From positions 1 to 64,000 of the forward strand of contig CAJXRU010000011.1 in the NCBI GenBank assembly GCA_913060565.1: a stretch of 64,000 nt of DNA, read 5' to 3'. Shown piece by piece: positions 9,705-30,768 of this stretch. The translations under genes were made by a program, and so were the position numbers. Each line of letters starts with the position of its first letter. The stretch's first letter is position 1. Origin of the DNA: an uncultured Gammaproteobacteria bacterium. Lineage in GTDB: Bacteria > Pseudomonadota > Gammaproteobacteria > Enterobacterales > Psychrobiaceae. The notes below the pieces were generated by a model, which had not been told where the DNA came from, did not search any database, and saw only the letters and a list, made by a program, of their open reading frames with translations.

Positions 9705-9732
9705 GATGCCTTCAAGAATATTTATGTTAGGG

Positions 9733-9892
9733 AAAAAATCATGGATGATTTTTTAGATTTTTGCGCATGGATGCGCATAAAAATCGGCCCGTAAAGACAG
9801 AAATATTTTTGAAGATCAGCAGCTAATCTTCGGGTCGCCTTTCTTTTGGTTACTTTTCTTTGGCGAAGCAAAGAAAAGTAACTGGTGTGCAA
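9733..9892. repeat. Dispersed palindromic repeat, short copy (copy 1)
   Basis: Noncoding element of consecutive hairpins. First, AAAAAATCAT gg ATGATTTTTT (9733-9754). Second, arm 9756-9767 (GATTTTTGCGCA) and arm 9772-9785 (TGCGCATAAAAATC) with two extra bases in the 3' arm. Third, GAAGAT / ATCTTC (9811-9831). Last, GTTACTTTTCTTTG / CAAAGAAAAGTAAC (9849-9882), preceded by GGGTCGCCTTTCTTTTG and followed by TGGTGTGCAA. A second copy lies at 30466-30768. A 73-codon frame runs through it on the minus strand but is only a by-product of the repeat. The remaining bases between 9893 and the selO stop show nothing recognisable. Confidence 0.85.
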
Positions 9893-10030
9893 TAGAATCA
9901 TCAAACGTTTCATACTACCCGTCAAAAGCACACCAAAAATCAAACAGCGACATGACCTTCGAATTGCGGCGCGCAGTATAGCAAATCTAATTAGCCACAG
10001 ACAAACTTTAGGCTAAAATTGAGAACCAAC

Positions 10031-11653
10031 TTACGAACTGCATGACAACATTGAACAACCTACTTTATCCCTCGCCCAATCAGGACGTTTCTTCGCATAG
10101 CGTTCAAACTCAGGTTGCTCGTCGTAAGGGTAACGCAATAGTTTTTGTAGGCGATGAATTTCACTGTAATCACCTTGCTGTGCGGCATCAATAGCTTGTT
10201 GTGACAAGTAGTTTCGTAATACGTATTTAGGATTAACGCTGTTCATTTGAGAAACTCTTAGTTCATCACTGCGATTATCTTGAATCACTCGTTGTTGCCA
10301 CTTTTCAAGCCAAGCAGCCATTTGTGATAAGTAAGTTTCACTAAGCTCCTCTTGTTGATAATAAGCCTCTTTTAATATGTCTAACCAAGTGGCTGAATCA
10401 CTTAATACTTGTGATAAATCTAACTGAGCAAGCTGGCGATAAAAGATGCTCATGTCCGTTTCAACAAGGCTAAGCAGCGCTTCAAGTGACTCAAATAATG
10501 CTAAATCTTCAGCATCTTGATAACCTTTCAAGCCTAGCTTCTGCGCCATCATTTCTCGCCATGCTAATTGATAGTCATCGGCAAATTGATTGAGGAGCGC
10601 TTCAAGTGGCGGCGCTTCTTCCACCAGCGGATAAATAGCATTGGCAAGTTGGAATAGATTCCACTGGGCAATTTCACCTTGGGTACCAAAGCGATAGCGT
10701 TTATGTTGTCTATCAGTCGTATTGGGGGTGAAGTTAACATCAAAATCATCAATCCAGCCATAAGGACCGTAGTCGATAGTTTCGCCGACTATCGACATAT
10801 TATCGGTATTCATTACCCCGTGAACGAAACCAACTCGCTGCCAGCCAACAACCATTTTACAGGTGCGCTGGCATACCTCTTCAAACCAACGCAGGTAAGT
10901 TTCTTTACCAATAGCTTTATCTTGAGATGACTGTTCTTTTTCAAGTAAATGGGGAAAATCAGCAGCGATGGTGTGATCGGCCAATGCCTTTAACAACTCT
11001 GTATCTTGCCTAAAAGCGGGCAGTTGAAAGTGTCCAAAGCGGGTAAATGATGACGATACTCGGCACACTACGGCACCGGGTTCGAGCGCAGCGTTGCCGT
11101 TATACATCATATCTCGCATCACTTCTTCGCCAGTTAAACTCAATGATAATGCTTTGGTGGTTGCGATACCTAAATGCTCCATCGCTTGGCTGCATAAAAA
11201 CTCACGTACTGAGCTACGTAAAACAGCTAAGCCATCACCACTGCGAGAATATGGCGTAATACCGGCTCCTTTGAGTTGTAAAATACGATGTTCACCTTTT
11301 GGCGTTACCAACTCGCCCAAATTAATGGCACGGCCGTCACCAAGTTGACCAGCCCAGTTACCAAATTGATGGCCACCGTAATTCATTGCATAAGGGGCCA
11401 TGCCGTCTAAAATCGCATTCCCTGCAACAACGTCGCTAAATAGCGGGTCGCTGAGATCTTTATCTTCAAATCCGAGTTCACCAGCAAGTGCTTCATCGAT
11501 AGCAATAACCTTAGGCGCCGCAACCTTGGTGGGCATAACAAAAGAATAGGCTGCGTTATGTACCTGACGCGTAAACTTTTCTGGCTCTTGGTCGGCTGGT
11601 AAATTATTCACAAAGCGGTTGTCAAAGGTGAATTTCGATTGAAGTAATGACAC
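10031..11653 (-). CDS. selO: Protein adenylyltransferase SelO (YdiU)
   Basis: SelO is a pseudokinase-fold enzyme that AMPylates Ser, Thr and Tyr of target proteins in redox stress. Recognised from MNYGGHQFGNWAGQLGDGRA, LKGAGITPYSRSGDG, AVLRSSVREFLCSQAM and MNTDNMSIVGETIDYGPY. The C-terminus ends GCSMLSCSS, which keeps the conserved Cys near the position that is selenocysteine in animals. At 540 residues it is longer than E. coli YdiU (about 480), through extra sequence in the middle and C-terminal helical part. Start is GTG at 11653. Confidence 0.93.
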   Translation of the reverse strand: MSLLQSKFTFDNRFVNNLPADQEPEKFTRQVHNAAYSFVMPTKVAAPKVIAIDEALAGELGFEDKDLSDPLFSDVVAGNAILDGMAPYAMNYGGHQFGNWAGQLGDGRAINLGELVTPKGEHRILQLKGAGITPYSRSGDGLAVLRSSVREFLCSQAMEHLGIATTKALSLSLTGEEVMRDMMYNGNAALEPGAVVCRVSSSFTRFGHFQLPAFRQDTELLKALADHTIAADFPHLLEKEQSSQDKAIGKETYLRWFEEVCQRTCKMVVGWQRVGFVHGVMNTDNMSIVGETIDYGPYGWIDDFDVNFTPNTTDRQHKRYRFGTQGEIAQWNLFQLANAIYPLVEEAPPLEALLNQFADDYQLAWREMMAQKLGLKGYQDAEDLALFESLEALLSLVETDMSIFYRQLAQLDLSQVLSDSATWLDILKEAYYQQEELSETYLSQMAAWLEKWQQRVIQDNRSDELRVSQMNSVNPKYVLRNYLSQQAIDAAQQGDYSEIHRLQKLLRYPYDEQPEFERYAKKRPDWARDKVGCSMLSCSS

Positions 11654-11765
11654 GTGATTCTCGATAAATTACAAATTAATGCCATCAGTATACCCGTTAA
11701 TGTGTACTGAAAAATCCGTAAAATAATTGGGGATAAAATTTATCAAAAAATTCAATAGCCCCTAA

Positions 11766-11967
11766 TTGACTTTATTTTAATCACCCTGCAATATGGTCTT
11801 ATTAATATTTGAAATTATTACCAAAACAATGAAACCATCTATCGCTTTTACATCGCTAATCAATTCATGCTGGCTATCAGTCAGTGTGATGATGTGCCTG
11901 TATAAGCGACTTGATTAGTTTCCATATTATTTTATTCAAGCCGCAGCCTACCTACTGCGGCTTTTTT
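11766..11967 (+). ncRNA. Possible structured leader or small RNA ahead of the EamA gene
   Basis: The region between the divergent selO and EamA genes ends in an intrinsic terminator (11938-11967) that serves no upstream plus-strand gene, so a short transcript is implied. A TTGACT at 11766 may be a -35 box, although the -10 is poor. Inside are complementary segments TCGCTT (11842-11847) / AAGCGA (11904-11909) and CTAATCAA (11856-11863) / TTGATTAG (11911-11918), which interleave and so compete or form a pseudoknot. A 29-codon frame 11829-11918, with adjacent Cys-Trp codons, covers them but has no good ribosome binding site. Attenuator leader or independent small RNA are both possible. Confidence 0.35.
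11938..11967 (+). terminator. Intrinsic terminator upstream of the EamA gene
   Basis: Perfect 9-bp stem AAGCCGCAG / CTGCGGCTT, 8-nt loop, followed by a T run. It sits about 60 nt before the EamA start and no plus-strand gene precedes it. Confidence 0.8.
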
Positions 11968-12025
11968 GTTTCTACATCAATGCTCCAGGCAGTTAGGCTT
12001 CGATAACAAAAGGAAGCCACCTATT

Positions 12026-12913
12026 ATGAAAGTATCTATTTGCTATCTCATTGTCATTGCTATTTGGTCAACAACACCGTTAGGCATAGTGTGGAGTAGT
12101 GAAAGCGTGTCGCCTACGATGGCTGTTATGTTACGAATGATAATAGCCGCAGTATTAGGCACTGCAATTTTAGTTATTTTGCGCATAAAACTGCCTGTTT
12201 CAAACACCGCATTTAGACTCTATGGTTATTCAACGCTCGGCTTGTTTGGCGGAATGACTTGCGGCTATATGGCATCAACTTATGTGACTTCTGGCTTTAT
12301 GTCACTGGTATTCGGCTTGTCACCTATTTTTACAGGGTTACTAGCACGCAGAATACTTGATGAGCCAGCCTTTGATAACAGTAAAAAACTGGCAATGGTT
12401 GTTTGCTTAGCAGGGTTAGCAATTGTCTGCTGAGACAAGCTCTCATTAAGCGGCGATAGCTATATCGGTATCTTATTGCTGTTAGTTGCGATGTTCTTTT
12501 TTAGCCTCAGCGGTGTATTGGTAAAAAGTGTCAACATTAGTATTCATCCACTGGCGACAACACTAGGCACGCTATATTGTTCACTGCCATTATTTTTCTT
12601 TGCTTGGCTGATAACTGATGGGCAGTTCAATGCCCATCAGTGGAGTGTTCGTTCGTTAGCATCCATTGCCTACCTTGGTATCTTTGGTTCATTAATAGGA
12701 TTGATTGCTTATTTCTTTGTCTTGCAACGATTAGCCACCAGCACCGTTGCATTATCAACATTAATAACGCCCAGCTTTGCCATCGCTTTAGGCGCAATTT
12801 TTAACAATGAGCGGATCAGTCATCAGCTGATTATGGGTGCTTTGTTAATTACCCTTGGGTTGGGAATTTACTTTTGGGGGAAACGATTTTCATTGCAACG
12901 TATTAAGTTGTAG
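12026..12913 (+). pseudogene. EamA (DMT) family transporter interrupted by one in-frame TGA
   Basis: Ten-helix drug/metabolite transporter of the EamA type, whose usual length is about 290-310 residues. Reading from the ATG at 12026 (AAGGAAG upstream) gives 135 residues ending GLAIVC, then TGA at 12431-12433, then the same frame continues with DKLSLSGDSYIGILLLLVAM for 159 more residues to 12913. There is no shift of frame and both halves have the expected helices, so a single base change explains the break. It is either a recent pseudogene, a read-through codon or a sequence error. The second half could be restarted from TTG or ATG codons near 12476-12491 but would be half a transporter. Confidence 0.8.
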
Positions 12914-12916
12914 CGC

Positions 12917-12951
12917 ATCATTCCTAACAATTTACTTGTGTTAGGAATGAT
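12917..12951. promoter_or_regulatory. 13-bp perfect inverted repeat enclosing the RBS of the next gene
   Basis: ATCATTCCTAACA (12917-12929) and TGTTAGGAATGAT (12939-12951) pair perfectly across a 9-nt loop. The AGGAA ribosome binding site of the downstream phosphodiesterase gene lies inside the 3' arm and its GTG start follows within two bases. No T run follows, so a plain terminator is less likely than control of translation or an operator. Confidence 0.5.
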
Positions 12952-12952
12952 T

Positions 12953-14173
12953 GTGAAAAAACTACTTTTAGCATGCACTTTTTTGCTACTCAATGCATGT
13001 GCAACGGATTCGGAAAAACAAACATTAGAAACGGCTCAAAAGCCTTATGTATTGCTTATTTCACTTGATGGATTCCGTTGGGATTATGTTGACAAATACA
13101 AACCGGAGTTTATCTCAACATTTGCTAAAGAGGGCGCAAGTTTAACGTCAATGCGTCCTTCTTTTCCTACTAAGACATTTCCAAATCATATCAGTTTGGT
13201 TACTGGCTCTTATCCACAACATCATGGCATTGTTGCCAATAAATTTTACGCACCAGATCTCGATAAAACTTACTACATAAAAGATTTTGAGGCCGTTACT
13301 AACTCAGATTTTTACTTGCGTAAACCATTGTGGGTAATTGCAGAAGAACAAAATGTACGCGCAGCAAGCTACTTCTGGCCAAGTTCTGAAGCAAAAATAG
13401 CTGGCATTCGCCCAAGTTTTTATAAAAAGTATGAGCATTCACAACCTCACCAACAACGCATCGATGGGGTTTTAGCATGGTTACAACTCCCAGAAGAGCA
13501 ACGACCACAACTCATCACAACCTATTTCCATGATATCGATAGCGCAGGCCATGAATTTGGCCAAGATTCACCAGAATTAATCGCCACCATAAAAACGGTC
13601 GACGACGCAATAAAACAGCTGGTTGAAAAAGTGCGTACCCTTGATATCGACGTCAATATTGTGATTGTTTCTGATCACGGCATGGATGACTATCCAGCAG
13701 AAAATTATGAGTACATTCCAGCGTGGGTCAAAGATGAGTTTAAAGTTGCTGCCGCCAATACCATAGTGCATTTGTACCACAATGAAGATAGCAAGATAAC
13801 AACAGAGCAAGCACTGGCGAATATTCGCCAGCAAGCCAAGCACTACCAATGCCATCTATACCAAGAAGTACCAGCCAAGTTTAATGCGTCCAAATCACAA
13901 CGTATGGGTGACATCACTTGTTTTGCTGATAAAGACTGGGCCATTGGTTTCAACGGCCGCACCAGCCATGGCGATCACGGCTGGAGCCAGTTTAATACCA
14001 CAGATATGGATGCAATATTCTACGCACAGGGCCCTGCTTTTAAGAAGAGTTATCAGATGGATACAGTAGAGAATGTCAACGTTATGCCGCTATTGGCACA
14101 CATTCTCGGTGTTAAAATCACAACACCAATTGACGGAAAACTTGAAAAGATGCAACCGCTTTTAAAACAATAA
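12953..14173 (+). CDS. Type I phosphodiesterase/nucleotide pyrophosphatase lipoprotein (NPP, alkaline phosphatase fold)
   Basis: Predicted outer- or inner-membrane lipoprotein of 406 residues: signal peptide with lipobox LLNAC. The metal-binding core is complete: LISLDGFRWDY (first Asp), nucleophile Thr about residue 74 in FPTKTFPNH, HDIDSAGHEFG, VSDHGMDD and SHGDHGW. Family members hydrolyse phosphodiester or pyrophosphate bonds of nucleotides and lipids outside the cytoplasm. GTG at 12953 is chosen because AGGAA lies five bases upstream, whereas the ATG at 12947 abuts that site. The substrate cannot be told from sequence. Confidence 0.88.
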   Translation: MKKLLLACTFLLLNACATDSEKQTLETAQKPYVLLISLDGFRWDYVDKYKPEFISTFAKEGASLTSMRPSFPTKTFPNHISLVTGSYPQHHGIVANKFYAPDLDKTYYIKDFEAVTNSDFYLRKPLWVIAEEQNVRAASYFWPSSEAKIAGIRPSFYKKYEHSQPHQQRIDGVLAWLQLPEEQRPQLITTYFHDIDSAGHEFGQDSPELIATIKTVDDAIKQLVEKVRTLDIDVNIVIVSDHGMDDYPAENYEYIPAWVKDEFKVAAANTIVHLYHNEDSKITTEQALANIRQQAKHYQCHLYQEVPAKFNASKSQRMGDITCFADKDWAIGFNGRTSHGDHGWSQFNTTDMDAIFYAQGPAFKKSYQMDTVENVNVMPLLAHILGVKITTPIDGKLEKMQPLLKQ

Positions 14174-14181
14174 CGTGCTAC

Positions 14182-14212
14182 GAATATTCCAGTTATTAAC
14201 GCTGGAATATTC
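14182..14212 (+). terminator. Hairpin after the phosphodiesterase gene
   Basis: Perfect 11-bp stem GAATATTCCAG / CTGGAATATTC with a 9-nt loop, nine bases after the stop codon. The T tract is weak, so it may be a processing or stability hairpin rather than a full intrinsic terminator. Confidence 0.5.
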
Positions 14213-14395
14213 AAATTAAACTCTTGCGTTATTCTTCACGCTAGTTACTCGACATTAACTGTTCAATAGACTAAATTAAGCGTTCACTTTCATGGTGTGT
14301 GATGTCTTCACCTGAGATATTACAGGAGTGTCCATTAGCTATATTCCAGGAGTTAATAACGACGACAGTCCTCTAATTTTTCTGAGGATAACACC

Positions 14396-15697
14396 ATGGC
14401 AACATCAACACTTCCTAATATCGTTATTATTGGCGGCGGCGCTGGCGGACTTGAACTGGCCACGCAATTAGGACATAAACTAGGGAAGAAAAACCGAGCA
14501 AATATTTTACTGATAGATAAAAATCGTAGTCATATCTGGAAACCACTGTTACATGAAGTGGCGACGGGCTCTCTTGACTCAAATTTAGATGGCGTAGTTT
14601 ACAGTGCACATGCAGCTAAACACGGATATCGATTCCAACTTGGCACTTTTTGCGACCTAAACACCGATACAAAAACAATTACCCTTGCGCCGCAGTTTGA
14701 ACAACAGCAACAAATTTTACCCTCACGAGAAGTGAATTTTGATCATCTAGTTATTGCGATAGGCAGTGTTAGTAATGATTTCAATACGCCCGGAGTCAAA
14801 GAACACTGTTTCTTTTTAGATTCGCATAAGCAAGCTGACCGTTTTCATGGTGCCCTGCTCAATGCGTTTACGCAAATTCATCAAAATACACAAGATGCTC
14901 AGCTCGATGTCGCCATTGTTGGCGCAGGTGCCACCGGTGTTGAATTATCAGCAGAGCTTTATCATGTTGCTGACCTGCTCAAGGTATATGGTTTGAGTAA
15001 TATGACGAGTGCTAAGCTCAATATTCATTTAATTGAAGCTGGCCCGACAATTCTTCCCGCACTGCCGCCACGTATTAGTCAAAGCGCTAAAGATGAACTT
15101 GAAAAACTCGGTGTTAATGTGATGGAAAACACCCGCATTGCCAAGGCAAGCTCTGAGGGCTTTATTACTAGTGAAAAAATACTTATCAACGCCGATTTAA
15201 TGTTATGGGCCGCAGGCGTTAAAGCACCAGACTTTATTCGAGAGATCGATTGTTTTGAGCTCAACCGGGCTAATCAAATTGTTGTTAAGCCGACATTGTT
15301 AAGCTCAACCAACGATGATATTTTTGTCATTGGCGATTGCTGTGCTTGTGAGTTACCAGATGGAAAGTTTGTTCCGCCACGAGCGCAATCAGCACATCAA
15401 ATGGCAAGCTGCGTCGAGTCAAATCTCATCAACAAACTCAACAACAAACCCTTAGAAAATTATCGCTATGTCGATTATGGCTCACTCGTTAACTTAAGTC
15501 GTTTTAGCACCGTTGGCAGCTTAATGGGCAACCTCACTAAACGCTCAATGTTTGTGGAAGGTAAAATTGCGCGCATCATGTATATTTCGTTGTATCGAAT
15601 GCATCAACGTGCCATTCATGGCACGTTGAAAACAATAGGCTTATGGTTTGCTGAAAAGATAATGCGAGTTGTACGGCCGCGAATGAAGCTACATTAA
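14396..15697 (+). CDS. ndh: Type II NADH dehydrogenase (NDH-2)
   Basis: Single-subunit, non-proton-pumping NADH:quinone oxidoreductase bound to the inner face of the membrane; 433 residues, as usual. FAD-binding Rossmann motif IIGGGAGGLELA at about 11-22, NADH-binding motif VAIVGAGATGVELSAELYH at about 170-188, and the second FAD block DDIFVIGDCCACELPDG. The C-terminal membrane-binding helices lie in the last 70 residues. TGAGGATA precedes the ATG. The stop shares TTAA with the convergent DUF4153 gene. Confidence 0.93.
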   Translation: MATSTLPNIVIIGGGAGGLELATQLGHKLGKKNRANILLIDKNRSHIWKPLLHEVATGSLDSNLDGVVYSAHAAKHGYRFQLGTFCDLNTDTKTITLAPQFEQQQQILPSREVNFDHLVIAIGSVSNDFNTPGVKEHCFFLDSHKQADRFHGALLNAFTQIHQNTQDAQLDVAIVGAGATGVELSAELYHVADLLKVYGLSNMTSAKLNIHLIEAGPTILPALPPRISQSAKDELEKLGVNVMENTRIAKASSEGFITSEKILINADLMLWAAGVKAPDFIREIDCFELNRANQIVVKPTLLSSTNDDIFVIGDCCACELPDGKFVPPRAQSAHQMASCVESNLINKLNNKPLENYRYVDYGSLVNLSRFSTVGSLMGNLTKRSMFVEGKIARIMYISLYRMHQRAIHGTLKTIGLWFAEKIMRVVRPRMKLH

Positions 15698-17505
15698 TCA
15701 GAGTCAGTTTGTTCAACATTAATGGCAGAACTGCCTGGTTTTTCTATTAATGTTGGCGGTTTTCGGGATGGTGGTGCAACTTGTTCTCGTACTTCAAACA
15801 ATTCACCGTCGATCTCCAGCGCCTTATAGCGAGTCGGTTTTGCTGTAATTAACTGCTGTTTAAACATATCAACAATACCAATGGCTTTGTCTTCATCATA
15901 ACCAATTCGAATTCTTCCGCTTCTAAGCCATTTACCATCACGCTGATCAAATACCAAAAGATCATCAGAGCCAATCGCATGCAGTAAAATTTCTAAATCT
16001 TCATCATAATCCACATTAAATGGGATGAAATAGCACATTTTATCTCGGCATGTATTCTGATTTAAATCACTGCTTTCTATAATTCTCATTAATTCTTCAT
16101 CAGACCAGAGAGAGTCACCAACCCAAGAATATTGATAAGGTTTCGCTGTTAACCCTTCTTTGAGCTCCCACCAATTGTACTTATCTGTCGCAGAGCTGAG
16201 TGCTTGATAGTATTCAGATAACTCAATATGCTGCGGATGTTTCCCGCTTTTTACATAGTCCGTAAGAGCGTCTTTTCCTCGCTGCCCTAAGTCGAAATAA
16301 AACAGTTCGTAAGCAAAGCCTTCGACGCTTACTTGCTGCTTGTCTAGCCGTAATAATTGGCTTTTTATTGTGACTGATACGGGGTTTAACCACGGATTAT
16401 GACTCATTACCAGCAGAGCAATGACGCAACCAGTTGCGATGACATTAGTACATTTTAACCAGACAAAATTACGTGCTCTCTCTCGCAGTAGTCCAAGATA
16501 TGGCACCGTATAAAATGCCATAACAACAACGATTAACGCCAAATAAACACGCGGCACTGTCCAGCCATATTGCGCGATTCTAAGATAAGAAGAATAAGCT
16601 GCAATAAGCATTAAAACAGTTAATGCAACAATATTAATATAAATAAGTGTGCGCCACACTTTATTGCTAGGTAACGAAAGGCGCAACGTAGATGCTTGAG
16701 GTAAACTCGCACCATTTATTAATAAAATATTGGCGAACACCAACACCAAAATAAGCGGTGTCGCAACGCCTGTTCCCCAAACATTATTGAGGCCAGTAAA
16801 AGCAACACTAGTAACAAAACTCAATGTTAGTAATGTCACTAAAGGTAAGAGCAAACCACACATGCTTAGTAGTAATCGTTTTAAATTATCAATGATATTA
16901 AAATGAGAGTGCGCCGCATGAATTCCGATACCAAAAACGCAACCAAGCACTGGCCATGCGAACCATTTATTTGTAAATAACTCTTCAAAAAAATCAATCC
17001 CGATGACTTGGAATAGCTCCCACCACAACGCCAGTACTAACCAAACCGCTAATGCAGTTAGCCATCCAAATGCAACAATAATTGCATTACACCAAGCGTG
17101 AGAAAATAAAGATTGATAGCTATCGCTCATCCATGATTGATACGTACTATGCCCTTGACTCGCCAGTTGTACAAAGGGAAGAATTAGGTAAGCGACGACG
17201 ACAAAAATTACGCCCCAAATTCCCTGATAACTGGATTTGATATCATCAAGAAAACAAAAGCCGAAGAAACCAAAGATGGCAAAATAACCAATCAGCATCA
17301 TCCACGCCGTTTTTGTCGATTGTCCGCTTATTTTCATCAAGTTAGGCGACAACTGCATAAATAACAATGCCCCCCAAAGTGACATCGTCGCGGTGATGAG
17401 CAACACTTTATCTACACTGTCATTGTCATCAAGCGTGATAAACAGAGCGATAATAACTCCCTGAATAAGGCCGATAAGTGCATTCATATTTAGAAAATTT
17501 TTCAC
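15694..17505 (-). CDS. DUF4153 domain polytopic membrane protein
   Basis: 603 residues with about eleven to twelve predicted membrane helices in the first 370 and a soluble C-terminal part rich in acidic residues. The helix pattern and blocks such as FGWLTALAVWLVLALWWELF and GIGIHAAHSHFNIIDNLKRL match DUF4153 proteins, whose function is unknown. AAGGGAAT precedes the ATG. The C-terminal tail ends in a Pro-rich, Gln-rich segment. It ends on the same four bases as ndh. Confidence 0.8.
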   Translation of the reverse strand: MKNFLNMNALIGLIQGVIIALFITLDDNDSVDKVLLITATMSLWGALLFMQLSPNLMKISGQSTKTAWMMLIGYFAIFGFFGFCFLDDIKSSYQGIWGVIFVVVAYLILPFVQLASQGHSTYQSWMSDSYQSLFSHAWCNAIIVAFGWLTALAVWLVLALWWELFQVIGIDFFEELFTNKWFAWPVLGCVFGIGIHAAHSHFNIIDNLKRLLLSMCGLLLPLVTLLTLSFVTSVAFTGLNNVWGTGVATPLILVLVFANILLINGASLPQASTLRLSLPSNKVWRTLIYINIVALTVLMLIAAYSSYLRIAQYGWTVPRVYLALIVVVMAFYTVPYLGLLRERARNFVWLKCTNVIATGCVIALLVMSHNPWLNPVSVTIKSQLLRLDKQQVSVEGFAYELFYFDLGQRGKDALTDYVKSGKHPQHIELSEYYQALSSATDKYNWWELKEGLTAKPYQYSWVGDSLWSDEELMRIIESSDLNQNTCRDKMCYFIPFNVDYDEDLEILLHAIGSDDLLVFDQRDGKWLRSGRIRIGYDEDKAIGIVDMFKQQLITAKPTRYKALEIDGELFEVREQVAPPSRKPPTLIEKPGSSAINVEQTDSD

Positions 17506-17638
17506 TGTATTCCCTTCAATTGATATCGTGAGTTCGCAATATATACTTTATAAATTAACACAAGCCAAAGCCATCGCTTAGAAAATTGCGTATACTTAGC
17601 ATCAATAAGACATTATCAATAACTAAGCGACTTATCTC

Positions 17639-18118: not shown

Positions 18119-18127
18119 TAATAATTT

Positions 18128-18153
18128 CGCCATGTTCCTCGAGTAACATGGCG
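18128..18153. terminator. Hairpin between convergent DUF2947 and signalling genes
   Basis: Perfect 9-bp stem CGCCATGTT / AACATGGCG with an 8-nt loop, ten bases after the DUF2947 stop and before the end of the convergent gene. T tracts are poor on both strands. Confidence 0.5.
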
Positions 18154-18163
18154 CAAATCATCT

Positions 18164-22648: not shown

Positions 22649-22916
22649 AAATTATCTTATAAATGATTACCCTATCCACTGGGTGTTACATTTTGTTACG
22701 TCCTTACATTAGTTATATCTTATTTATGTTTTTTTACCAACAGGTTTAACTTATTTATTACAAATAATATTTTTAAATACTAAAGAGGTAGATTATTGTA
22801 TTGCTTTAGGATTCAACAGCTTAAATAGTTGCATATTTTTACAGCACTTTGTTCTTATTTACCGATGGATAAACAACCATTAGAATTTAATATCCCCCAC
22901 TGTTAAGGAGCGTTTG
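22649..22916. other. AT-rich intergenic region before the short flagellin
   Basis: Divergent promoter space for the signalling protein and the flagellin. AAGGAG at 22905-22910 is the flagellin ribosome binding site. ACCGATGG near 22861 faintly recalls a sigma-28 -10 box but lacks a matching -35, and no sigma-54 GG-N10-GC pair was found. A direct repeat GTTAC...GTTAC lies at about 22684-22698. Nothing else recognised. Confidence 0.4.
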
Positions 22917-23603
22917 ATGAACTTTTCAATCAATCAAACTTCGTCACTTAGTTTTATCGAGCAAGCGCAAAAAAAGCGCGAAGAGCAGACGGAAAAACTC
23001 GCTTCAGGACTAAAAATCAACCAAGCGGCAGATGATGCAGCGGGTTTACAGATTTCTAATCGTCTGACCTCACAAATCAATGGTTTAAATCAACAAGCTG
23101 TTAATTCACGCGATCAAATTAATCTTAATGATGTGGCTTCGGCGCAATTATCATCAATTACGAACAATCTGCAACGCGCTAACGAATTAGCTGTTCAATC
23201 AGGCAGTCCATTGTCTGACAACTCTGCGATTCAAGGAGAGTTAGATCAACTATCAGGTGAAATTAACGCGGTAGCTGGTCAGGCATTGGGTAATGATAGT
23301 TTTATTTCAGGTCTTGATGCTGGTGACACAGCTGGTTCTCTCGCCGCAATTGAAACGGCATTAGCAAGTGTTGGTGAGCAAGCCTCTAGTTTAGGCGCGC
23401 AATCAAATGGCTTAGAAAGCCAAATCAGTACCTATGAAGTTACAAGCACCAATAGTAGTGCTGCCCGTTCTCGTATTCGTGATACTGATTTTGCACAAGC
23501 CACTGGCGAGCAACAAAAGAATGATATTTTGCTGCAAGCCTCACTAAGTATTCAAAAAACAGAAGAAGAACGTAAGGGACTATTATTCAATCAAATGGTT
23601 TAG
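22917..23603 (+). CDS. Short flagellin homologue (D0/D1 domains only)
   Basis: 228 residues. The N-terminal half has the flagellin D0/D1 helices (EKLASGLKINQAADDAAGL, then QISNRLTSQINGLNQQAVNS) and the C-terminal half the matching D1/D0 helices (ARSRIRDTDFAQATGEQQKN). The variable D2/D3 part is replaced by a short Gly/Ser-rich link, so it is near the minimum for a filament subunit. The C-terminus ends KGLLFNQMV and lacks the usual AQANQ-P-LLQ tail. No flagellar gene is nearby. ATG at 22917 follows AAGGAG by six bases. It may be a minor or specialised flagellin; export by the flagellar apparatus is inferred. Confidence 0.85.
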   Translation: MNFSINQTSSLSFIEQAQKKREEQTEKLASGLKINQAADDAAGLQISNRLTSQINGLNQQAVNSRDQINLNDVASAQLSSITNNLQRANELAVQSGSPLSDNSAIQGELDQLSGEINAVAGQALGNDSFISGLDAGDTAGSLAAIETALASVGEQASSLGAQSNGLESQISTYEVTSTNSSAARSRIRDTDFAQATGEQQKNDILLQASLSIQKTEEERKGLLFNQMV

Positions 23604-24421
23604 TGCTTTTGTTCTGAACTCGTTGGATAGCCAAACAATGCCTTATACCTAGCGCGCCACGATGTGGCGCGTTTTGTTTGTTTAAACAAATGAATCCACT
23701 GATGAAAGCTAATCTTAATCGGATTATCACTATTTAACTGACCGACAATACCAAATTCACAAGGTACTTGTTCATCCTCTTCAACATATGTCCCAAACAA
23801 TTTATCCCAAATAATTAACACACCCGCATAATTGCGATCGATATATTTCGGATTGATAGCATGATGCACGCGATGATGAGACGGCGTGTTAAAGAGCTTT
23901 TCTATTAAGCCAAGCTTGCCAACGATCTTAGTGTGAACAAAAAATTGGAATGCTAAGTTTAAGGCAACTACCGCAAATACAACCTTTGGATCATAGCCAA
24001 TCAAGATCATTGGCGTCCAAAATATCCACATACCTGCAATTGGATACATCAACGATTGTCTAAACGCCGTAGAGTAATTCATGTGGGTCGAGCTATGGTG
24101 AGCCACATGCGCTGCCCACATCCAATGAATGTTATGAGAGGCACGATGAAACCAATAATATAAAAAATCTTGCAATAAAAAGGCGACAAGCATAGTGACA
24201 AAAGAGACTTCAACATCCCACAAACGATATTCATAAAGCACGTAAAACCACGGCATTAATATCGCTAACGCAATAGCGTCAGTACCCTGATGCAATAGCG
24301 CCAATACGGTATTCGCTGCCGAATCTTTTAATTGATAGTTTTCGCGATATTTAAAGAATTCATAGCCAATAAACAGCCAAAAAATTGGGCTAATCGCTAG
24401 AAGAATTAATGCTACGTCCAT
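23600..24421 (-). CDS. Sterol desaturase / fatty acid hydroxylase family membrane protein
   Basis: 273-residue integral membrane di-iron enzyme. The histidine clusters are visible: HRASH, HVAHHSSTHMN and HRVHHAINPKYIDRN, with four to five membrane helices before and between them. Family members hydroxylate or desaturate lipids, sterols or carotenoids; the substrate here is unknown. Its 3' end overlaps the flagellin stop by four bases, and its 5' end overlaps the SRPBCC gene by 32 nt, so the two minus-strand genes form an operon. Confidence 0.88.
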   Translation of the reverse strand: MDVALILLAISPIFWLFIGYEFFKYRENYQLKDSAANTVLALLHQGTDAIALAILMPWFYVLYEYRLWDVEVSFVTMLVAFLLQDFLYYWFHRASHNIHWMWAAHVAHHSSTHMNYSTAFRQSLMYPIAGMWIFWTPMILIGYDPKVVFAVVALNLAFQFFVHTKIVGKLGLIEKLFNTPSHHRVHHAINPKYIDRNYAGVLIIWDKLFGTYVEEDEQVPCEFGIVGQLNSDNPIKISFHQWIHLFKQTKRATSWRARYKALFGYPTSSEQKH

Positions 24422-24830
24422 TAAAGTGCTCCGCTAGTTTTGTAAGCCCATGGCTCATATCTTGATTAATTATTTTTTTAACGATAAAGCTCGGTTGCCA
24501 CCACAGGGCCTGACAAGTGATGAGATAGTTGATTTTGCAACCATTATTACTTTCGATAATATGAATGCTGCCATAGTGATTTCTTACTGGCTTATTACCA
24601 ATGATTCGATAGTGGATACAACGCTGTGTAACAGCAATCACCTCTTCACAAAACTTTTCACCGCGCATGGTAATTTCACGAATAAGCCCAACACCAGTGC
24701 TAGAGCTCGCAGGTTGTTTAACACTAAAGGAGCCATTAAAAAATCGCCCCAATTGCTCATGGTCTAACAACGCATTATGCACATCATCGGCACTGGCATT
24801 AATAGATTTTGTTAATGAAATAGTGAGCAT
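24390..24830 (-). CDS. SRPBCC (START-like) family protein
   Basis: 146 residues with the polyketide cyclase/START-like layout: an N-terminal strand (MLTISLTKSINASADDVHNALLD), a helix-loop, several strands and a long C-terminal helix (DMSHGLTKLAEHFNGR). Such proteins bind hydrophobic ligands. It overlaps the downstream hydroxylase gene, suggesting a shared lipid pathway. ATG at 24830 is chosen over the TTG just upstream. Confidence 0.75.
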   Translation of the reverse strand: MLTISLTKSINASADDVHNALLDHEQLGRFFNGSFSVKQPASSSTGVGLIREITMRGEKFCEEVIAVTQRCIHYRIIGNKPVRNHYGSIHIIESNNGCKINYLITCQALWWQPSFIVKKIINQDMSHGLTKLAEHFNGRSINSSSD

Positions 24831-24883
24831 CAATTAACCAATATTTAAAGAATAATAACCATAAAGATTATTGAATTTATGCT

Positions 24884-24929
24884 TGGCAAACTTGCCGTCT
24901 TGTGACAAGATTTTTGTCTTTAGACGACA
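24884..24929. promoter_or_regulatory. Cluster of short palindromes between SRPBCC and AraC genes
   Basis: Three small inverted repeats adjoin: GGCAA ac TTGCC, CTTGT g ACAAG, and TTGTC tttagac GACAA. They occupy the divergent promoter region, where the AraC-type regulator could bind. Each is short, so support is moderate to weak. Confidence 0.35.
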
Positions 24930-24955
24930 ACTCATCAACAAAACTAAAACTAACG

Positions 24956-25969
24956 ATGAAAAACTCTACTTCAATAAGCTATTTCAGCGGCGTTTTAACC
25001 TTTCTTGAACAGCAAGGTGTTAATCGTGAGGATGCTCTCAATGCGATTAATTTTACTGAGTTTGATAGCTACGACGACTCGCAGCGTGTTTCATTGTCGC
25101 ACTACTCTGATTTACTGGATTACGGTAAAGTGGCTTGCGACAATCCGCTATTTGGCTGCTACTTAGGAACGGATATCCACAGTGCTGACTATGGTGTTTT
25201 AGGTTTCCTAATAGAATCGTGTGAAAACCTAGGCAATGCTATTAACGATTTATTAAAATTTGATCGCATTGTCGCCAACATTGGAAATTGTGTATTTAGT
25301 CATAATTTAGAGCAAGCGAGTATTGCTTGGACACCTCATAATCAGTGTAGTGAGCAAGTCGTGTTAAGAAACATGGCGGCTTGGTTTACCACTACCACGC
25401 AACTCATCGGTTATACATTACCCCCGACAAGCGTCAGCTTTGTTCATTGCTACCCTAAAGAATTGCTAGTCAAGCTGAGTAAACTATTCAATTGCCCTGT
25501 GTATGGTGGTGCCAAAGTCAATAAAATCGATTTTCCGTTTGAGTTTCTTAATCTCGAATTTCGCAACGACAATCCACAAATTCACCAAGCGCTTATGGCG
25601 CTTTCTCAAGAACAATTGAGCAAGCTCAATGACAATGATCTCGCAAAAAATAGAGTCGCCGACCTGCTTAGTACCAAAATAGATTTGAATAACTGCACAC
25701 TCATTCGGTTTGCCGCAGCGCTTCATGTATCACCACGAACACTGCAACGACAGCTCAAAGCAGAAAAACAACAATTCGGCGAGTTATTAGATAGCGAACG
25801 CCAACGGCGCGTCATCGCGCTCATAGGAAAGATGCCACTGGGAGATTTATCGCAGCAATTAGGGTTTAATGAACAAAGCTCATTGAATCGCGCCTTTAAA
25901 AGATGGTTTAACTGCACACCAAAGCAATATCTGGTAAAACAGGACGCAGGAAAACGAGCCGCACTATGA
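24956..25969 (+). CDS. AraC family transcriptional regulator (OruR/ArgR-type)
   Basis: 337 residues from the ATG at 24956. An N-terminal ligand-binding domain of the Arabinose_bd type (FLEQQGVNREDALNAINF, then YGVLGFLIESCENLGNAIND) is followed by a C-terminal AraC HTH (RFAAALHVSPRTLQRQLKAE and LGFNEQSSLNRAFKRWFNCT). An in-frame TTG 18 codons upstream has no ribosome binding site. It is divergent from the SRPBCC-hydroxylase operon, its likely target, and overlaps the next regulator gene by ATGA. Confidence 0.88.
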   Translation: MKNSTSISYFSGVLTFLEQQGVNREDALNAINFTEFDSYDDSQRVSLSHYSDLLDYGKVACDNPLFGCYLGTDIHSADYGVLGFLIESCENLGNAINDLLKFDRIVANIGNCVFSHNLEQASIAWTPHNQCSEQVVLRNMAAWFTTTTQLIGYTLPPTSVSFVHCYPKELLVKLSKLFNCPVYGGAKVNKIDFPFEFLNLEFRNDNPQIHQALMALSQEQLSKLNDNDLAKNRVADLLSTKIDLNNCTLIRFAAALHVSPRTLQRQLKAEKQQFGELLDSERQRRVIALIGKMPLGDLSQQLGFNEQSSLNRAFKRWFNCTPKQYLVKQDAGKRAAL

Positions 25970-26991
25970 ATATTTCATCATCACTCCTATTTTTCTTTAG
26001 CGCATTGGGTGCCTTCAATGGGTTGTTATTATCTGGTTATTTGATGTTTAACAAACCACGTACTGGGCACAATATCTTTCTCTCGTTATTATTACTCATG
26101 ATTAGCGTGCGGATCACCAAATCAGTTTTCTTCTTTTTTAATCCTCAATTGGCTGGTGAGTTTTTACAAGTCGGATTAGCAGCGTGTTTTCTAATAGGTC
26201 CATTTCTTTATTGGTATTGCGCTAGCCAGCAACAAAAACTAGCTAATTTATGGTTGCCTTGGCAACTACAATTGGGCCTGTTAGTTGCTGTTGTTTTGAC
26301 GACCCTTTGGTTAGTGCCTTATTCACGTAGCTCCCACGAGTGGCATGTTATCTTCATGGTAATTAACCGTATTTGGCTATGTTTTATCTTGCTATCTGCC
26401 TATCTGTTAAGGCCTATATTCATTGAATTATGGCAACAGAGAAAGCTCGAAAAGACTGACGATATAATCGCTATTAGCGTATTTGTTGGGGTTAGTTTGA
26501 TTTGGCTAGCGTATTTCACATCCCGTTATACATCATATATTGCAGGCGCTTTGTCATTTTCGGTAGTGCTGTATTTCAATCTAATGTTTTTTGTTTTACG
26601 CCGAAGAGAACATGCTAAAACACCAGAAAAATACAGTGATAAAAAAATAGAAGATGAACAGGCGAATATTCATATTTTGCAATTAGAAACATTGATTACT
26701 CAGCATCGTTTATTTCAAGATGCCGGGCTAACTATCACCAAGGTAGCAAAGAAAATGGGGGTGTCGAGTCCCTATTTATCACAGCTGCTCAACGATAATA
26801 TGAAAGTGACATTCACTCATTTCATTAACGAATACCGCATTGAACTTGCGAAAGAAATGCTACAAACAAATACTAAAAAAGTTGATGACATTGCTGATGA
26901 ATGTGGATTTAATTCAACATCCACTTTTTATGCCGTATTTAAAAAGCATACGCAAATGACGCCATCTGTTTTTAGGAAAAGTACATTATAA
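25966..26991 (+). CDS. Membrane-bound AraC family regulator
   Basis: 341 residues. The first ~215 form about seven membrane helices (FFFSALGAFNGLLLSGYLMF; VVLTTLWLV), and the C-terminal ~100 are an AraC HTH (ITKVAKKMGVSSPYLSQLLN, DIADECGFNSTSTFYAVFKK). Regulators of this plan sense signals in the membrane; the ligand is unknown. Translationally coupled to the soluble AraC gene through a 4-nt overlap. The stop codon overlaps the end of the convergent PepSY-TM gene. Confidence 0.87.
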   Translation: MNISSSLLFFFSALGAFNGLLLSGYLMFNKPRTGHNIFLSLLLLMISVRITKSVFFFFNPQLAGEFLQVGLAACFLIGPFLYWYCASQQQKLANLWLPWQLQLGLLVAVVLTTLWLVPYSRSSHEWHVIFMVINRIWLCFILLSAYLLRPIFIELWQQRKLEKTDDIIAISVFVGVSLIWLAYFTSRYTSYIAGALSFSVVLYFNLMFFVLRRREHAKTPEKYSDKKIEDEQANIHILQLETLITQHRLFQDAGLTITKVAKKMGVSSPYLSQLLNDNMKVTFTHFINEYRIELAKEMLQTNTKKVDDIADECGFNSTSTFYAVFKKHTQMTPSVFRKSTL

Positions 26992-27555
26992 AACAAAGAT
27001 ATATATTGCTGGCACTACACCGCCAGCAATGACCAACCAGCCACGCCGAAAGCGCCATGGACTGTATTTCCCCTTCACCATGAATAATGCAGATAACGAA
27101 AGAAAAATAAGTAATCCAGCATAAACATCAGAAAACGCAATCCACCCATTTTGTGCTTCGTTCAAATGCAGACGATTAAACTGTTTAAACACGTGACGAG
27201 GCCTAACATGTTCAAAAACGCCTTGTTGCTGAATAAAACTGTAGGTTAACGTACCGCCCTCTTCAAAGAACACCTTATAGATCTGTGGTGATTCCCAGTA
27301 GGTAGCACGAATACCTTCATCAATATTAAAGCTCGATAACAAAGCCTCATTGAGCACTTCATCTGACATTGTATTGGCTAACGTTATTTTTTGGGTTTGA
27401 CGATCAACAATATAGTTTGGATTCCAATGACGTAAATGATTTAACGCGATACCAGAAATGGCAAAAACCAATGTCAGGCCAATGCAAAAATATCCAATAT
27501 CACGATGTAATTCTCGATTAAGACGAAACCAGTTAATTCCCTGCTTTCTAGTCAA
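26986..27555 (-). CDS. PepSY-associated transmembrane domain protein
   Basis: 189 residues: an N-terminal cytoplasmic segment NRELHRDIGYFCIGLTLVFA, a first helix, a periplasmic PepSY-like region, and two C-terminal helices around AGLLIFLSLSALFMVKG and GWLVIAGGVVPAIYIFVL. The R-x-LH-R-D-x-G start and the HL-x-HW motif are typical of the PepSY_TM family, often found with iron or haem uptake genes and reductases. It overlaps the DUF4920 gene by 8 nt and is probably co-translated with it. Confidence 0.82.
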   Translation of the reverse strand: MTRKQGINWFRLNRELHRDIGYFCIGLTLVFAISGIALNHLRHWNPNYIVDRQTQKITLANTMSDEVLNEALLSSFNIDEGIRATYWESPQIYKVFFEEGGTLTYSFIQQQGVFEHVRPRHVFKQFNRLHLNEAQNGWIAFSDVYAGLLIFLSLSALFMVKGKYSPWRFRRGWLVIAGGVVPAIYIFVL

Positions 27556-28012
27556 GAATCTTCACCCCAGTTGGCGACACTTGATACAGTGACATACCTG
27601 AGGTTACTGACGCTAAATCAAAGGTTTTTCCAGCGCGTTTAGCCAATGATGCTTTGTAACGCTGAGCTTGTTCTATATTCAACTTAATTTCTTTTAAATA
27701 ACCCGTCGCTAGTGCTTTGCGCCCTTTTGCACTCATTGGAAATACCATATCGCCGTCGCGTACTTTAATACGTAATTTTTCAAAACGCGCGTCAGAGGCT
27801 AGGTTCATCCAACAACCGCGCTTTTCGCATACACCAACAATGGTTCCCGCAACTGTAACCTTCTTATCTACGTAATTTTGTGGTGATGCTAACAACGCTG
27901 AAATCTTTATTGTATCTTTTGCATCTACGGCTTCACCGAAGGTTAACGCCTTTGCATTAACTGTCGATACAAATAAAAGGGCCAATAAAACAGTGGCTAA
28001 TAATGTGCGCAT
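27548..28012 (-). CDS. DUF4920 periplasmic protein
   Basis: 154 residues with a cleavable signal peptide ending VNAKA. The mature part is an OB-fold-like domain with KVTVAGTIVGVCEKRGCWMN, where two Cys flank a Lys-Arg-Gly and could bind metal or form a disulfide. The family DUF4920 has no assigned function. First gene of a two-gene operon with the PepSY-TM protein. A 10-bp palindrome TAACATGTTA lies about 41 nt upstream. Confidence 0.8.
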   Translation of the reverse strand: MRTLLATVLLALLFVSTVNAKALTFGEAVDAKDTIKISALLASPQNYVDKKVTVAGTIVGVCEKRGCWMNLASDARFEKLRIKVRDGDMVFPMSAKGRKALATGYLKEIKLNIEQAQRYKASLAKRAGKTFDLASVTSGMSLYQVSPTGVKILD

Positions 28013-28128
28013 GAAACTCTCCGTTCATCTATTTAATTCCAGAACGAGTTTGTAACATGTTATGAGGCGTCTTTAAAGTCACGGCTAAATATAAATGGTA
28101 ATTATTTGTGTTTGGTCGACTTGCGAGG

Positions 28129-28743
28129 CTATTTCAAGATTTCAAAGGTCGCTATTTCTTGAGGCGTCATCCAATGAATCTCACTTGCGGGTGCCGCATT
28201 TAAGGTATACCAATAAAATGACGTAGGGATTCCGATTTCTCTATAATATTCAATATACTTATCATGTTCTTGATGTGTCTTAAGATATTCCAATGCTTCT
28301 TTCTCTCCGTCGCTCCAAGAGTGAACACCTAATTTAGCCCCAGCTTCTATAGAACGGCTGACGCCCGCCAAAAACATATCTGTTCCACCTGAAGCCACCA
28401 TACCGTCAGCCGGAATATGAGTTGCGACACCGTGCGCTCTGATCTCACGAGACGCTAATAAATTAATTTCATCATCCATTGAACCTGGAACATTAACCAT
28501 CACAATACGCTTAATTTGCGGGTGACGTTTAAATAGATCTTGAATATCCTCTAAAGTATTACCGTAGATGACACCATTCATATACACGGTGTCGCTGTTG
28601 GCATTACCGTCTTTAAATGTAAATTTAGCCCCTTGTTCATTTTCAGACCACAAGATAAATTCTTGCATACTGGCGCAGCCGGAGACAACACTGGTTAGCG
28701 CGACAAATAAACCAATCAAGGTTAAACGATATAAAGATTTCAT
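28129..28743 (-). CDS. Lipoprotein with ClpP/crotonase-like fold (COG3904-like)
   Basis: 204 residues with signal peptide and lipobox VSGC at about 20-23. The middle reads GVIYGNTLEDIQDLFKRHPQ, then MVASGGTDMFLAGVSRS and AKLGVHSWSDG, which follows the order of serine and histidine blocks in ClpP-like periplasmic proteins of the COG3904 type. The Ser of ASGG and the His of GVHSW are candidate catalytic residues. This is fold recognition by eye. It is a single gene with no evident partner. Confidence 0.6.
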   Translation of the reverse strand: MKSLYRLTLIGLFVALTSVVSGCASMQEFILWSENEQGAKFTFKDGNANSDTVYMNGVIYGNTLEDIQDLFKRHPQIKRIVMVNVPGSMDDEINLLASREIRAHGVATHIPADGMVASGGTDMFLAGVSRSIEAGAKLGVHSWSDGEKEALEYLKTHQEHDKYIEYYREIGIPTSFYWYTLNAAPASEIHWMTPQEIATFEILK

Positions 28744-28824
28744 AAGGACATTCCTAACAATAAGCGATATCTCATTATCTAATAATCAGTCACCGATAAA
28801 TGTAAGAAAGTGTCTAAATAATGT

Positions 28825-28846
28825 AGGCAATGAAACTACATTGCCT
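28825..28846. terminator. Hairpin after the halogenase gene
   Basis: Perfect 8-bp stem AGGCAATG / CATTGCCT with a 6-nt loop, nine bases beyond the minus-strand halogenase stop. T tract on the minus strand is modest. Confidence 0.5.
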
Positions 28847-28854
28847 GTTTAAGT

Positions 28855-30348
28855 TCAAATATTTAAGAAGGCTTCATGCTGCGGCATGCTTTCAACCGAG
28901 CGTTGAATTAACGTATTGAGGTTATCCATCAGATCAGCAAGCTGCTCATCAGTTAGCGTACTAGCCATTGGATGAATATCTTGTGGCAATATTTCTTGCC
29001 CCAACAACACTTGCTGCCATGCAATTTCAGTGAACACATCATCTTGCTCACGAAACACTTTGCCAGACTCCTTAAATAACGCAATTTTTCGCGCTAGTGT
29101 TTCTGGAATATCCATACGCTGACATTGCTGCCAAAAAGCACTATCTTGTCGTTGAGTCGCTTTGTAATGGAGAATAATAAAATCCCTAATATTCTCAATT
29201 TCCATTTTCGATTGACGATTGTACTCATCAACCTCACAGGCTTTAATACCGTGATGTGGGAAGCACTTAAGTAACCTAATAACACCCATTTGAATAAGGT
29301 GAATACTCGTTGATTCTAATGGCTCTAAAAAGCCACTTGATAAACCGATAGCAACGACATTTTTATTCCATTGTTTAAGGCGGCGCCCCGTTCTAAATTT
29401 AATAAAGTTAGGCTCCGCTAGCGGTTTCCCAGGAAGAGAGTCAGACAGCGTTTTCAATGCTTGCTCATCCGTCATAAATTTACTGGAATACACCATGCCA
29501 TTACCCATGCGGTGCTGCAATGGAATGTGCCAACACCAGCCAGCCTCTTTAGCAACACTGCGTGTGTAAGGCGCAATCGGTGACGGCGATTCACATGGCA
29601 GGGCAACCGCGCTATCACAGGGTAACCAATGACGCCAATCTTCATACCCAGTGTTAAGCGTTTGCTCAATCAGCAGGCCTCGTAAGCCGCTGCAATCGAT
29701 AAACAAGTCGCCATCAATAGACTGTCCGCTTTCAAGCACTAATTGTTCAACCTCTCCCGATTGCTGATTTTGTATAACATCAACAACCTTGCCCTCAATG
29801 CGCTCAACACCGCGTGCTTGACTATATTCACTCAATAGTTTTGCATAAAGGGAGGCATCAAAATGATAGGCATAAACAATCCCCGGTAAATTAGTACCAG
29901 TGATATGGGGTAATTTATCGAATTTATGCTGTTTTGCCGCTTGATAATTTAATGAAAAATCACCGAACTCATACTCACTTCCCTGCTCTTTAGCACGCAA
30001 AAATACATGGTGAAAGTCGCAAAAAGGTAGGTTTTTTCCTAGGCCGCCAAACGCGTGCATATATTTTGAGTTTTCTGTGCTCCAATTTTCAAATTCAATA
30101 CCAAGTTTCATCGTGCCCTTGGTTGCAGCTAAAAACGTTTTCTCATCAATACCCAGCGCATTATTCAAATGAATAATCGGCGGAATAGTCGCCTCACCAA
30201 CCCCAATAGTGCCAATAGCTTGTGATTCAATCAGCTTGATGTTGTGGGTTTTACCAAGCACTTTTACAAGCAATGCTGCGCTGATCCAGCCAGCAGTACC
30301 ACCACCAACGATAGTGATATTTTTTATTTTAAACTTATCCATTTTCAA
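28855..30348 (-). CDS. Flavin-dependent tryptophan-halogenase family protein
   Basis: 497 residues. FAD-binding motif IVGGGTAGWISAALLVK at the N-terminus, the GVGEATIPP segment, conserved Lys in TMKLGIEFENW (the residue thought to form the lysine chloramine), and the halogenase signature WCWHIP. FADH2-dependent family members chlorinate or brominate tryptophan or other aromatics. No reductase or secondary-metabolite gene is present. The next gene on the same strand is a TonB-dependent receptor in a maltodextrin cluster, an association that recurs in this bacterial group with an unknown substrate. Confidence 0.85.
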   Translation of the reverse strand: MKMDKFKIKNITIVGGGTAGWISAALLVKVLGKTHNIKLIESQAIGTIGVGEATIPPIIHLNNALGIDEKTFLAATKGTMKLGIEFENWSTENSKYMHAFGGLGKNLPFCDFHHVFLRAKEQGSEYEFGDFSLNYQAAKQHKFDKLPHITGTNLPGIVYAYHFDASLYAKLLSEYSQARGVERIEGKVVDVIQNQQSGEVEQLVLESGQSIDGDLFIDCSGLRGLLIEQTLNTGYEDWRHWLPCDSAVALPCESPSPIAPYTRSVAKEAGWCWHIPLQHRMGNGMVYSSKFMTDEQALKTLSDSLPGKPLAEPNFIKFRTGRRLKQWNKNVVAIGLSSGFLEPLESTSIHLIQMGVIRLLKCFPHHGIKACEVDEYNRQSKMEIENIRDFIILHYKATQRQDSAFWQQCQRMDIPETLARKIALFKESGKVFREQDDVFTEIAWQQVLLGQEILPQDIHPMASTLTDEQLADLMDNLNTLIQRSVESMPQHEAFLNI

Positions 30349-30465
30349 TCTCGTTTTACATCAAGACCACTCGACATTCTAAAATGGTCATGTTCACTTA
30401 GGAAAACTAACTTAAAGCGCGGAATTTCCCGCTATTTATTGTCTCAAAATAAAAATTAGCCAATG

Positions 30466-30768
30466 AAAAAATCATGGATGATTTTTTAGTATTTACCGCA
30501 GGGATGCGGATTAAATACGGTATTGAACAGCTTATTTTTCTTTTGAGGATAACAATAAATCTCGGGTCGCCTTTCTTTTGGTTACTTTTCTCTGTAAATC
30601 TCGTCCTGAGATTTATCGCTCAGCGACCTGCTAACGCAGTCCTAGAATATTCCCGATATTCTAGTGGCGAAGCACAAATTAGTCAGGAACTAATTTGAAC
30701 AGCCAAAGGCTGGTCCACAGGACGAAATACACGGATGTATTTCTTAAAGAAAAGTAACTGGTGTGCAA
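30466..30768. repeat. Dispersed palindromic repeat, long copy (copy 2)
   Basis: Same element as 9733-9892 in the same order: AAAAAATCAT gg ATGATTTTTT (30466-30487), a second hairpin with arms 30489-30500 and 30505-30518, the segment GGGTCGCCTTTCTTTTG, then GTTACTTTTC...AAAGAAAAGTAAC and TGGTGTGCAA. The terminal hairpin is enlarged: about 155 bases are spread on either side of the retained core TGGCGAAGCA. They hold at least five more short hairpins, for example AAATCTC/GAGATTT, TAGAATAT/ATATTCTA, AAATTAGT/ACTAATTT, CAGCC/GGCTG and GAAATACA/TGTATTTC. Lies in the 550-nt space between TonB receptor and halogenase; the flanks hold only a terminator. Confidence 0.85.

Follow-up and report, generated by a model that had tools for sequence, protein, structure and literature searches.

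Two copies of a stacked-hairpin repeat lie in the 64,000-nucleotide window analysed here, which is the whole stretch taken from contig CAJXRU010000011.1 (positions 1–64,000) of an uncultured gammaproteobacterium of the Psychrobiaceae. Both are members of a multi-copy family of intergenic non-coding DNA that is dispersed in beta- and gammaproteobacterial genomes, and on balance we regard them as copies of a non-autonomous mobile element whose information lies in a folded single strand, most likely + strand RNA. Three strands of its 3′ core change together across genomes, which is strong evolutionary evidence that the core would form a pseudoknot containing a long triple helix. The family unites two unexplained Rfam fragments, TwoAYGGAY and Bp1_684, and the part missing between them is now filled by a pseudoknot whose contiguous major-groove triple helix appears unusually long and is supported by three-strand covariation, a kind of signal that to our knowledge is rarely seen.

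The initial annotation had placed the copies at 9733–9892 and 30466–30768, which is the right place but covers only the middle of a longer element of ~300 nt. From stem to closing hairpin, outer ends excluded, copy 1 spans 9695–9935 and copy 2 30428–30810, with the following features.

Copy 1
9628–9966 (no strand): insertion interval, 48 nt in the relative G001 against ~340 nt here, flanks ~95% identical
9695–9834 (+): 5′ multibranch domain with outer stem CCCG...CGGG, inner stem and two GGA-loop hairpins (covariance model, consensus fold, covariation)
9733–9754 (+): hairpin 1, AAAAAATC-ATGGAT-GATTTTTT (sequence; conserved in relatives)
9756–9785 (+): hairpin 2, GATTTTTGCGC-ATGGAT-GCGCATAAAAATC, with two-base 3′ bulge (covariation)
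9836–9881 (+): H-type pseudoknot (S1/S2 covariation, three-strand covariation)
9836–9839 with 9862–9865 (+): stem S1, CGCC with GGCG (covariation)
9840–9847 (+): loop 1, TTTCTTTT (three-strand covariation)
9850–9861 with 9870–9881 (+): stem S2, TTACTTTTCTTT with AAAGAAAAGTAA (covariation)
9870–9877 (+): AAAGAAAA, on which loop 1 would form eight proposed parallel base triples (three-strand covariation)
9883–9935 (+): terminal hairpin D, TGGTGTGC...GCACACCA (covariation)

Copy 2
30428–30566 (+): 5′ multibranch domain, architecture as in copy 1
30466–30487 (+): hairpin 1, identical to that of copy 1 (sequence)
30489–30518 (+): hairpin 2, GTATTTACCGCA-GGGA-TGCGGATTAAATAC, with the same two-base bulge (sequence, covariation)
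30568–30757 (+): pseudoknot with expanded S2 loop (coordinates)
30568–30571 (+): S1 5′ strand CGCC, with GGCG kept at 30666–30669
30572–30579 (+): loop 1, TTTCTTTT; S2 5′ arm at 30582–30593, 3′ arm at 30746–30757
30595–30745 (+): hairpin-cluster insertions flanking the S1 3′ strand on both sides (same place in L002, L007, L009, G007 and G008)
30759–30810 (+): terminal hairpin D, TGGTGTGC...GCACATCA (sequence)

Pseudoknot Core and Three-Strand Covariation

The two S1 strands, located 5′ of TTTCTTTT and 3′ of the hairpin-C arm, change together in distant gammaproteobacteria, where CGCC/GGCG, GTCC/GGAC, GGCC/GGCC, CACC/GGTG and other variants occur; 12 S1 types are fully paired, and the pairing score reaches 330/364 compared with at most 292 in 2000 shuffles. 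As the S1 stem crosses hairpin C, the core is an H-type pseudoknot in the order S1, loop 1, S2, and both crossing stems covary. Loop 1 runs parallel to the S2 purine strand AAAGAAAA, as U·A-U and C+·G-C triples require, and is aligned exactly so that eight parallel triples could form in the S2 major groove, a predicted parallel Hoogsteen register with the S2 purines. The closing hairpin D also occurs in covarying types, TGGCGTGC/GCACGTCA and TGATGTGC/GCACATCA.

We searched 370 Gammaproteobacteria genomes with a degenerate pattern that does not fix where C stands in any of the three strands; the reversed-pattern control gave 0 matches. Among 86 distinct genome/core rows, 81 are consistent, 60 of them type I (TTTCTTTT/TTTTCTTT/AAAGAAAA, 31 genomes) and 21 type II (TTTTCTTT/TTTCTTTT/AAAAGAAA, 14 genomes), with five genomes carrying both types; the others are four single changes and a lone cross combination that is slipped by one base. 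The association of the two types has a Fisher p of ~1e-18 by row and 6e-12 by genome, relatedness not being corrected for. For a second test, cores were picked from all fetched loci solely for Watson-Crick pairing of S1 and S2, the S2 arm having to consist of pyrimidines. In 141/142 of these cores loop 1 mirrors that arm base for base, and four words occur among them, TTCTCTTT and CTTTCTTT included; many of these loci had been fetched by the type I word, but the 20 cores of other words mostly had not, and 19/20 of the latter are mirrors as well. When three mismatches were allowed in the 23-nt core (21 genomes), 66 of 77 mismatches fell into the 7 non-triplex positions. Templated copying yields direct or inverted repeats rather than mirror repeats, so that this order is naturally read as the outcome of selection for Hoogsteen pairing. 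A coding origin of the core (R-L-S-F-G-Y-F-S-L) was ruled out, as the loop length ranges from 5 to 9 nt and insertions break the frame.

Triple-helix H-type pseudoknots are known from the SAM-II and SAM-V riboswitches (PMC6061858). Like these and the telomerase RNA pseudoknot, the core would, judged by covariation, place loop 1 in the S2 major groove, parallel to the purine strand, with U·A-U and C+·G-C triples; unlike them, it has eight contiguous covariation-supported triples, no evident ligand pocket and a location in a mobile multi-copy bacterial repeat. As far as could be found the 3′ half containing this core is undescribed: literature searches, with most subscription journals outside their reach, returned nothing relevant on either the core sequence or triple-helix pseudoknot repeats in bacteria. 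The core is small and easy to synthesise and lends itself as a model of triple-helix pseudoknots.

5′ Domain and Copy Number

Covariation in the genus was assessed on an alignment of 32 gap-free copies from five genomes (281 columns) against a home-made null that follows the idea of R-scape, re-throwing Fitch substitutions on the tree branches. All 32 copies share the outer stem CCCG..TTA..GC/GC..TAA..CGGG, the inner stem, hairpin 1 and the bulged hairpin 2, and 14 of 77 stem pairs covary at E<0.05, an excess that bears out the covariation seen in the initial annotation. Its description of two copies sharing both anchors and an identical first hairpin was borne out in position, and chance is excluded, since 0/100 shuffles contained any of the three words (anchors, hairpin 1) twice. 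The second hairpins indeed differ in their arms while pairing is kept, and the two-base 3′ bulge is present in 32/32 copies (AT in 29, GT in 3). Retention of this bulge alongside changing arms is incompatible with palindrome-correcting replication as the origin of the covariation, and quasi-palindrome correction was discarded. The suggested selection on an RNA or single-stranded DNA (ssDNA) structure is backed by the tree-aware, the pseudoknot-stem and the three-strand covariation alike.

There are also more than two copies, all counts being pattern matches: the anchor GGGTCGCCTTTCTTTTGG matches 15 times in the draft source genome (G000), corresponding to ~15 element copies, and a slightly longer core pattern matches 21 times in the complete genome of the relative G007, which hence holds at least 21 copies. 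Neither finding that the initial annotation had named as speaking against its reading, a lack of excess covariation or two copies only, was borne out.

Relation to TwoAYGGAY and Bp1_684

Using cmscan with permissive filters, copy 1 matches the Rfam family TwoAYGGAY (RF01731) at ~9691–9830 with 53.2 bits (E 3e-6, cut-off 43). TwoAYGGAY has been proposed to be a CsrA-binding RNA (PMC4333381). The same permissive scan lists no TwoAYGGAY match for copy 2, for which we do not claim membership, and a gathering-mode Rfam scan with default filters over the whole 64-kb window returned nothing, copy 1 included; default filters can hide family members, as they do here. AYGGAY-type loops occur in both copies, as AUGGAU in both hairpins of copy 1 and as AUGGAU and AGGGAU in copy 2. 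Copy 1 and TwoAYGGAY thus have in common a 5′ domain scoring above the curated cut-off and two hairpins with AYGGAY-like loops, but the Rfam model comprises this domain only and lacks the 3′ pseudoknot, the closing hairpin, the dispersed mobility and the GGA-less beta forms. Across the family the 5′ domain carries one or two GGA-loop hairpins, being TwoAYGGAY in gammaproteobacteria and another hairpin in betaproteobacteria. TwoAYGGAY domains can occur without the triplex core: genome G034 has 14 matches over the cut-off, and no triplex core lies near the 13 loci examined (L287, L296, L302–L312).

The second fragment, Bp1_684 (RF02421), is a Burkholderia small RNA whose transcript was detected in B. 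pseudomallei by reverse transcription PCR (RT-PCR) (PMC3521395). Burkholderia element copies score 53.8–131.5 bits against its model in L030, L036 and L115 (cut-off 44), the match running on the same strand from the S2 3′ strand onward. The model begins inside the pseudoknot and is devoid of S1, loop 1, the S2 5′ arm and the 5′ domain, and the window copies do not match it (covariance model, cut-off 44 bits).

Mobility and Rearrangement

Empty sites in relatives, inversions at orthologous sites and breakpoints inside copies indicate, as read from genome comparison, that the element is mobile. The sites of the window copies were compared between the source genome and the relatives G001, G007, G008 and G009. 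Besides the short allele in G001 listed above, the copy-1 site is devoid of the element in G007 and G009; the copy-2 site is empty in G007 and G008 and holds a different subtype without the hairpin-cluster insert in G001. The G007 intergenic region at the copy-2 site (L232, G007:C4:245900–248300) contains short units CCTACATGGATGTAGGTACTTAG resembling repetitive extragenic palindromic (REP) sequences. At three orthologous sites the element lies in opposite orientation (L002 vs L173/L185, L007 vs L172/L186, L009 vs L189). The two flanks of L005 adjoin two different elements in G007 (L178 and L184, at the breakpoints), and the break in G001 lies at an element, which points to recombination between copies. 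Inverted element pairs 430–620 bp apart occur in several genera and are near-perfect in Burkholderia, suggesting a path to inversion via inverted duplication and loss. The near-perfect Burkholderia pair has arms of ~350 bp and is found in several species (L036 1680–2337; L030, L062, L089). Inverted neighbours often combine one type I with one type II core (L294, L260, L280), an arrangement that would stop the two cores pairing with each other.

All 55 copies lie outside genes of at least 100 aa, and relative to their neighbours 53 copies are arranged as 16 co-directional forward, 19 reverse, 16 convergent and 2 divergent. A candidate for terminal inverted repeats, the outer CAGTTAAG...CTTAACTG, is confined to one subfamily. 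The element resembles REP sequences and bacterial interspersed mosaic elements (BIMEs), enterobacterial repetitive intergenic consensus (ERIC) sequences and miniature inverted-repeat transposable elements (MITEs) in being multi-copy, intergenic, palindromic, protein-less and insertion-polymorphic and in avoiding divergent promoters, but differs from them by its independence of REP-associated tyrosine transposases (RAYTs), the target duplication not found, its covarying pseudoknotted fold and a core common to distant families.

Clusters of short hairpins with TCC and GGA loops are inserted in element loops while the S1 3′ strand is kept mid-cluster (L007, L009, L180, L184, L190, L195 and L292, in the last within loop 1). 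Other nested hairpin modules, such as CTGCATGGATGCAG + GGCAACGCAGGAGCAGTTGCC, sit within the loops of hairpin 1 or 2 (L011, L014, L176, L181, L168, L194, L196, L197). These modules suggest that the element loops are insertion targets or the sole tolerated sites.

Nature of the Folded Strand

That the element strand is RNA appears quite probable, favoured by its strand-specific GGA loops, the TwoAYGGAY match, a G-U bias and the RT-PCR-detected Bp1_684. The GGATG/GGGATG loop, already noticed to recur, is strand-specific: hairpin loops on the + strand read GGA vs TCC in 38/4 cases in the genus, 30/0 in other gammaproteobacteria and 16/4 in mostly beta contigs. G-U vs A-C pairs on the + strand number 74/39 in the genus copies and 33/20 in the cores. 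Assuming + strand transcription, the element thus carries GGA in hairpin loops of the transcribed strand as do CsrB/RsmZ-type RNAs.

As to how the element moves and what it does, we infer that the + strand would be transcribed, and that the triple-helix knot may lock and protect the RNA or serve as a handle for a shared protein. The GGA hairpins of gammaproteobacterial copies might bind CsrA, in which case the copies could be small CsrA sinks or ride on CsrA, linking a mobile repeat to CsrA. Copying would operate on the folded strand to give new elements, and existing copies would be reshuffled through inverted duplication and ectopic recombination. By analogy with telomerase RNA, one might go further and picture a bacterial RNA akin to short interspersed nuclear elements (SINEs), protein-less, beta- and gammaproteobacterial and spreading via RNA, with the triple-helix pseudoknot as its handle for a host enzyme, an idea we consider rather a long shot. 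Whether RNA is the form in which dispersed bacterial repeats spread or act can be tested cleanly on this family.

Several observations weigh against a mobile RNA. The lack of a preferred orientation to neighbouring genes (16/19/16/2) is odd for a read-through RNA; no promoter was found, although none was sought by test; the empty-site comparison at the copy-1 site with G001 revealed no target-site duplication; and no transposase or reverse transcriptase partner was identified in the carriers examined. CsrA cannot be the function common to all copies, since GGA loops are missing from most beta copies; GGA occurs on either strand of the inserted hairpin clusters, and transcription of Bp1_684 may be operon read-through.

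The folded strand could instead be ssDNA, such as becomes accessible at replication forks or in intermediates of conjugation or transposition, and would then serve as substrate for a DNA-processing enzyme, with transcripts being incidental. We hold this to be conceivable but doubtful: the missing orientation preference, the inverted neighbours and the inversions at orthologous sites would fit, and T·A-T and C+·G-C triples as well as G·T wobbles form in DNA too, but both the TwoAYGGAY match and the strand specificity of the GGA loops accord with RNA, the HUH Y1 family PF01797 is absent from G007 with its 21 copies, and phage records gave no core match and a viral contig scan only one.

A host-beneficial element at transcript ends, that is a structured block that protects mRNA 3′ ends or terminates transcription and is kept like REP elements, is improbable in our view. 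Divergent intergenic regions are avoided (2/53) while 3′ gene ends are filled, and triple helices protect RNA ends in other systems; both orientations are, however, equally common despite the strand-specific pseudoknot, and sites are empty in close relatives and occupation is patchy across species.

Spread of the hairpin units by a tyrosine HUH transposase, as in RAYT/REP systems, is highly unlikely. The repeats are palindromic and intergenic, and the source genome has a single RAYT-like Y1_Tnp gene (239 aa, G000:C85, L016 1441–2160) ~7 kb from copy L008. The REP-associated transposase for which the initial annotation recommended a search nevertheless found no support as a partner: Y1_Tnp (PF01797) is missing from the core carriers G007 (complete, at least 21 copies), G190, G238 and G244, its presence does not separate carriers from non-carriers across genomes, and the elements measure ~300 nt with a pseudoknot, compared with 20–40 nt for REPs. 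RVT_1 reverse transcriptases are likewise absent from G000, G134, G141, G190 and G244. Both candidate partners are missing from several carriers, the element requires neither RAYT (PF01797) nor RVT_1, and no conserved neighbouring or cargo gene recurs across genera. Finally, a conformational switch, in which loop 1, rather than being a third strand, takes turns with the S2 arm as a Watson-Crick strand, can be dismissed, since loop 1 and arm do share their base composition but the switch requires them to be equal, the sole such case among 86 cores is the one-base-slipped one, and the mirror order is kept through four words.

Distribution

The core was not detected in E. coli records, nor in any of 135 genomes from other classes of the phylum, and is present in 42/370 sampled Gammaproteobacteria (in the GTDB sense, betas included) with a patchy distribution across species. 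Three core records labelled Firmicutes (L033, L060, L097) are metagenome-assembled genomes whose label could stem from faulty binning. Among the named carriers are Burkholderia, Ralstonia, Polaromonas, Variovorax, Silvimonas and Aggregatibacter, and 12 records of a plasmid collection contain a match.

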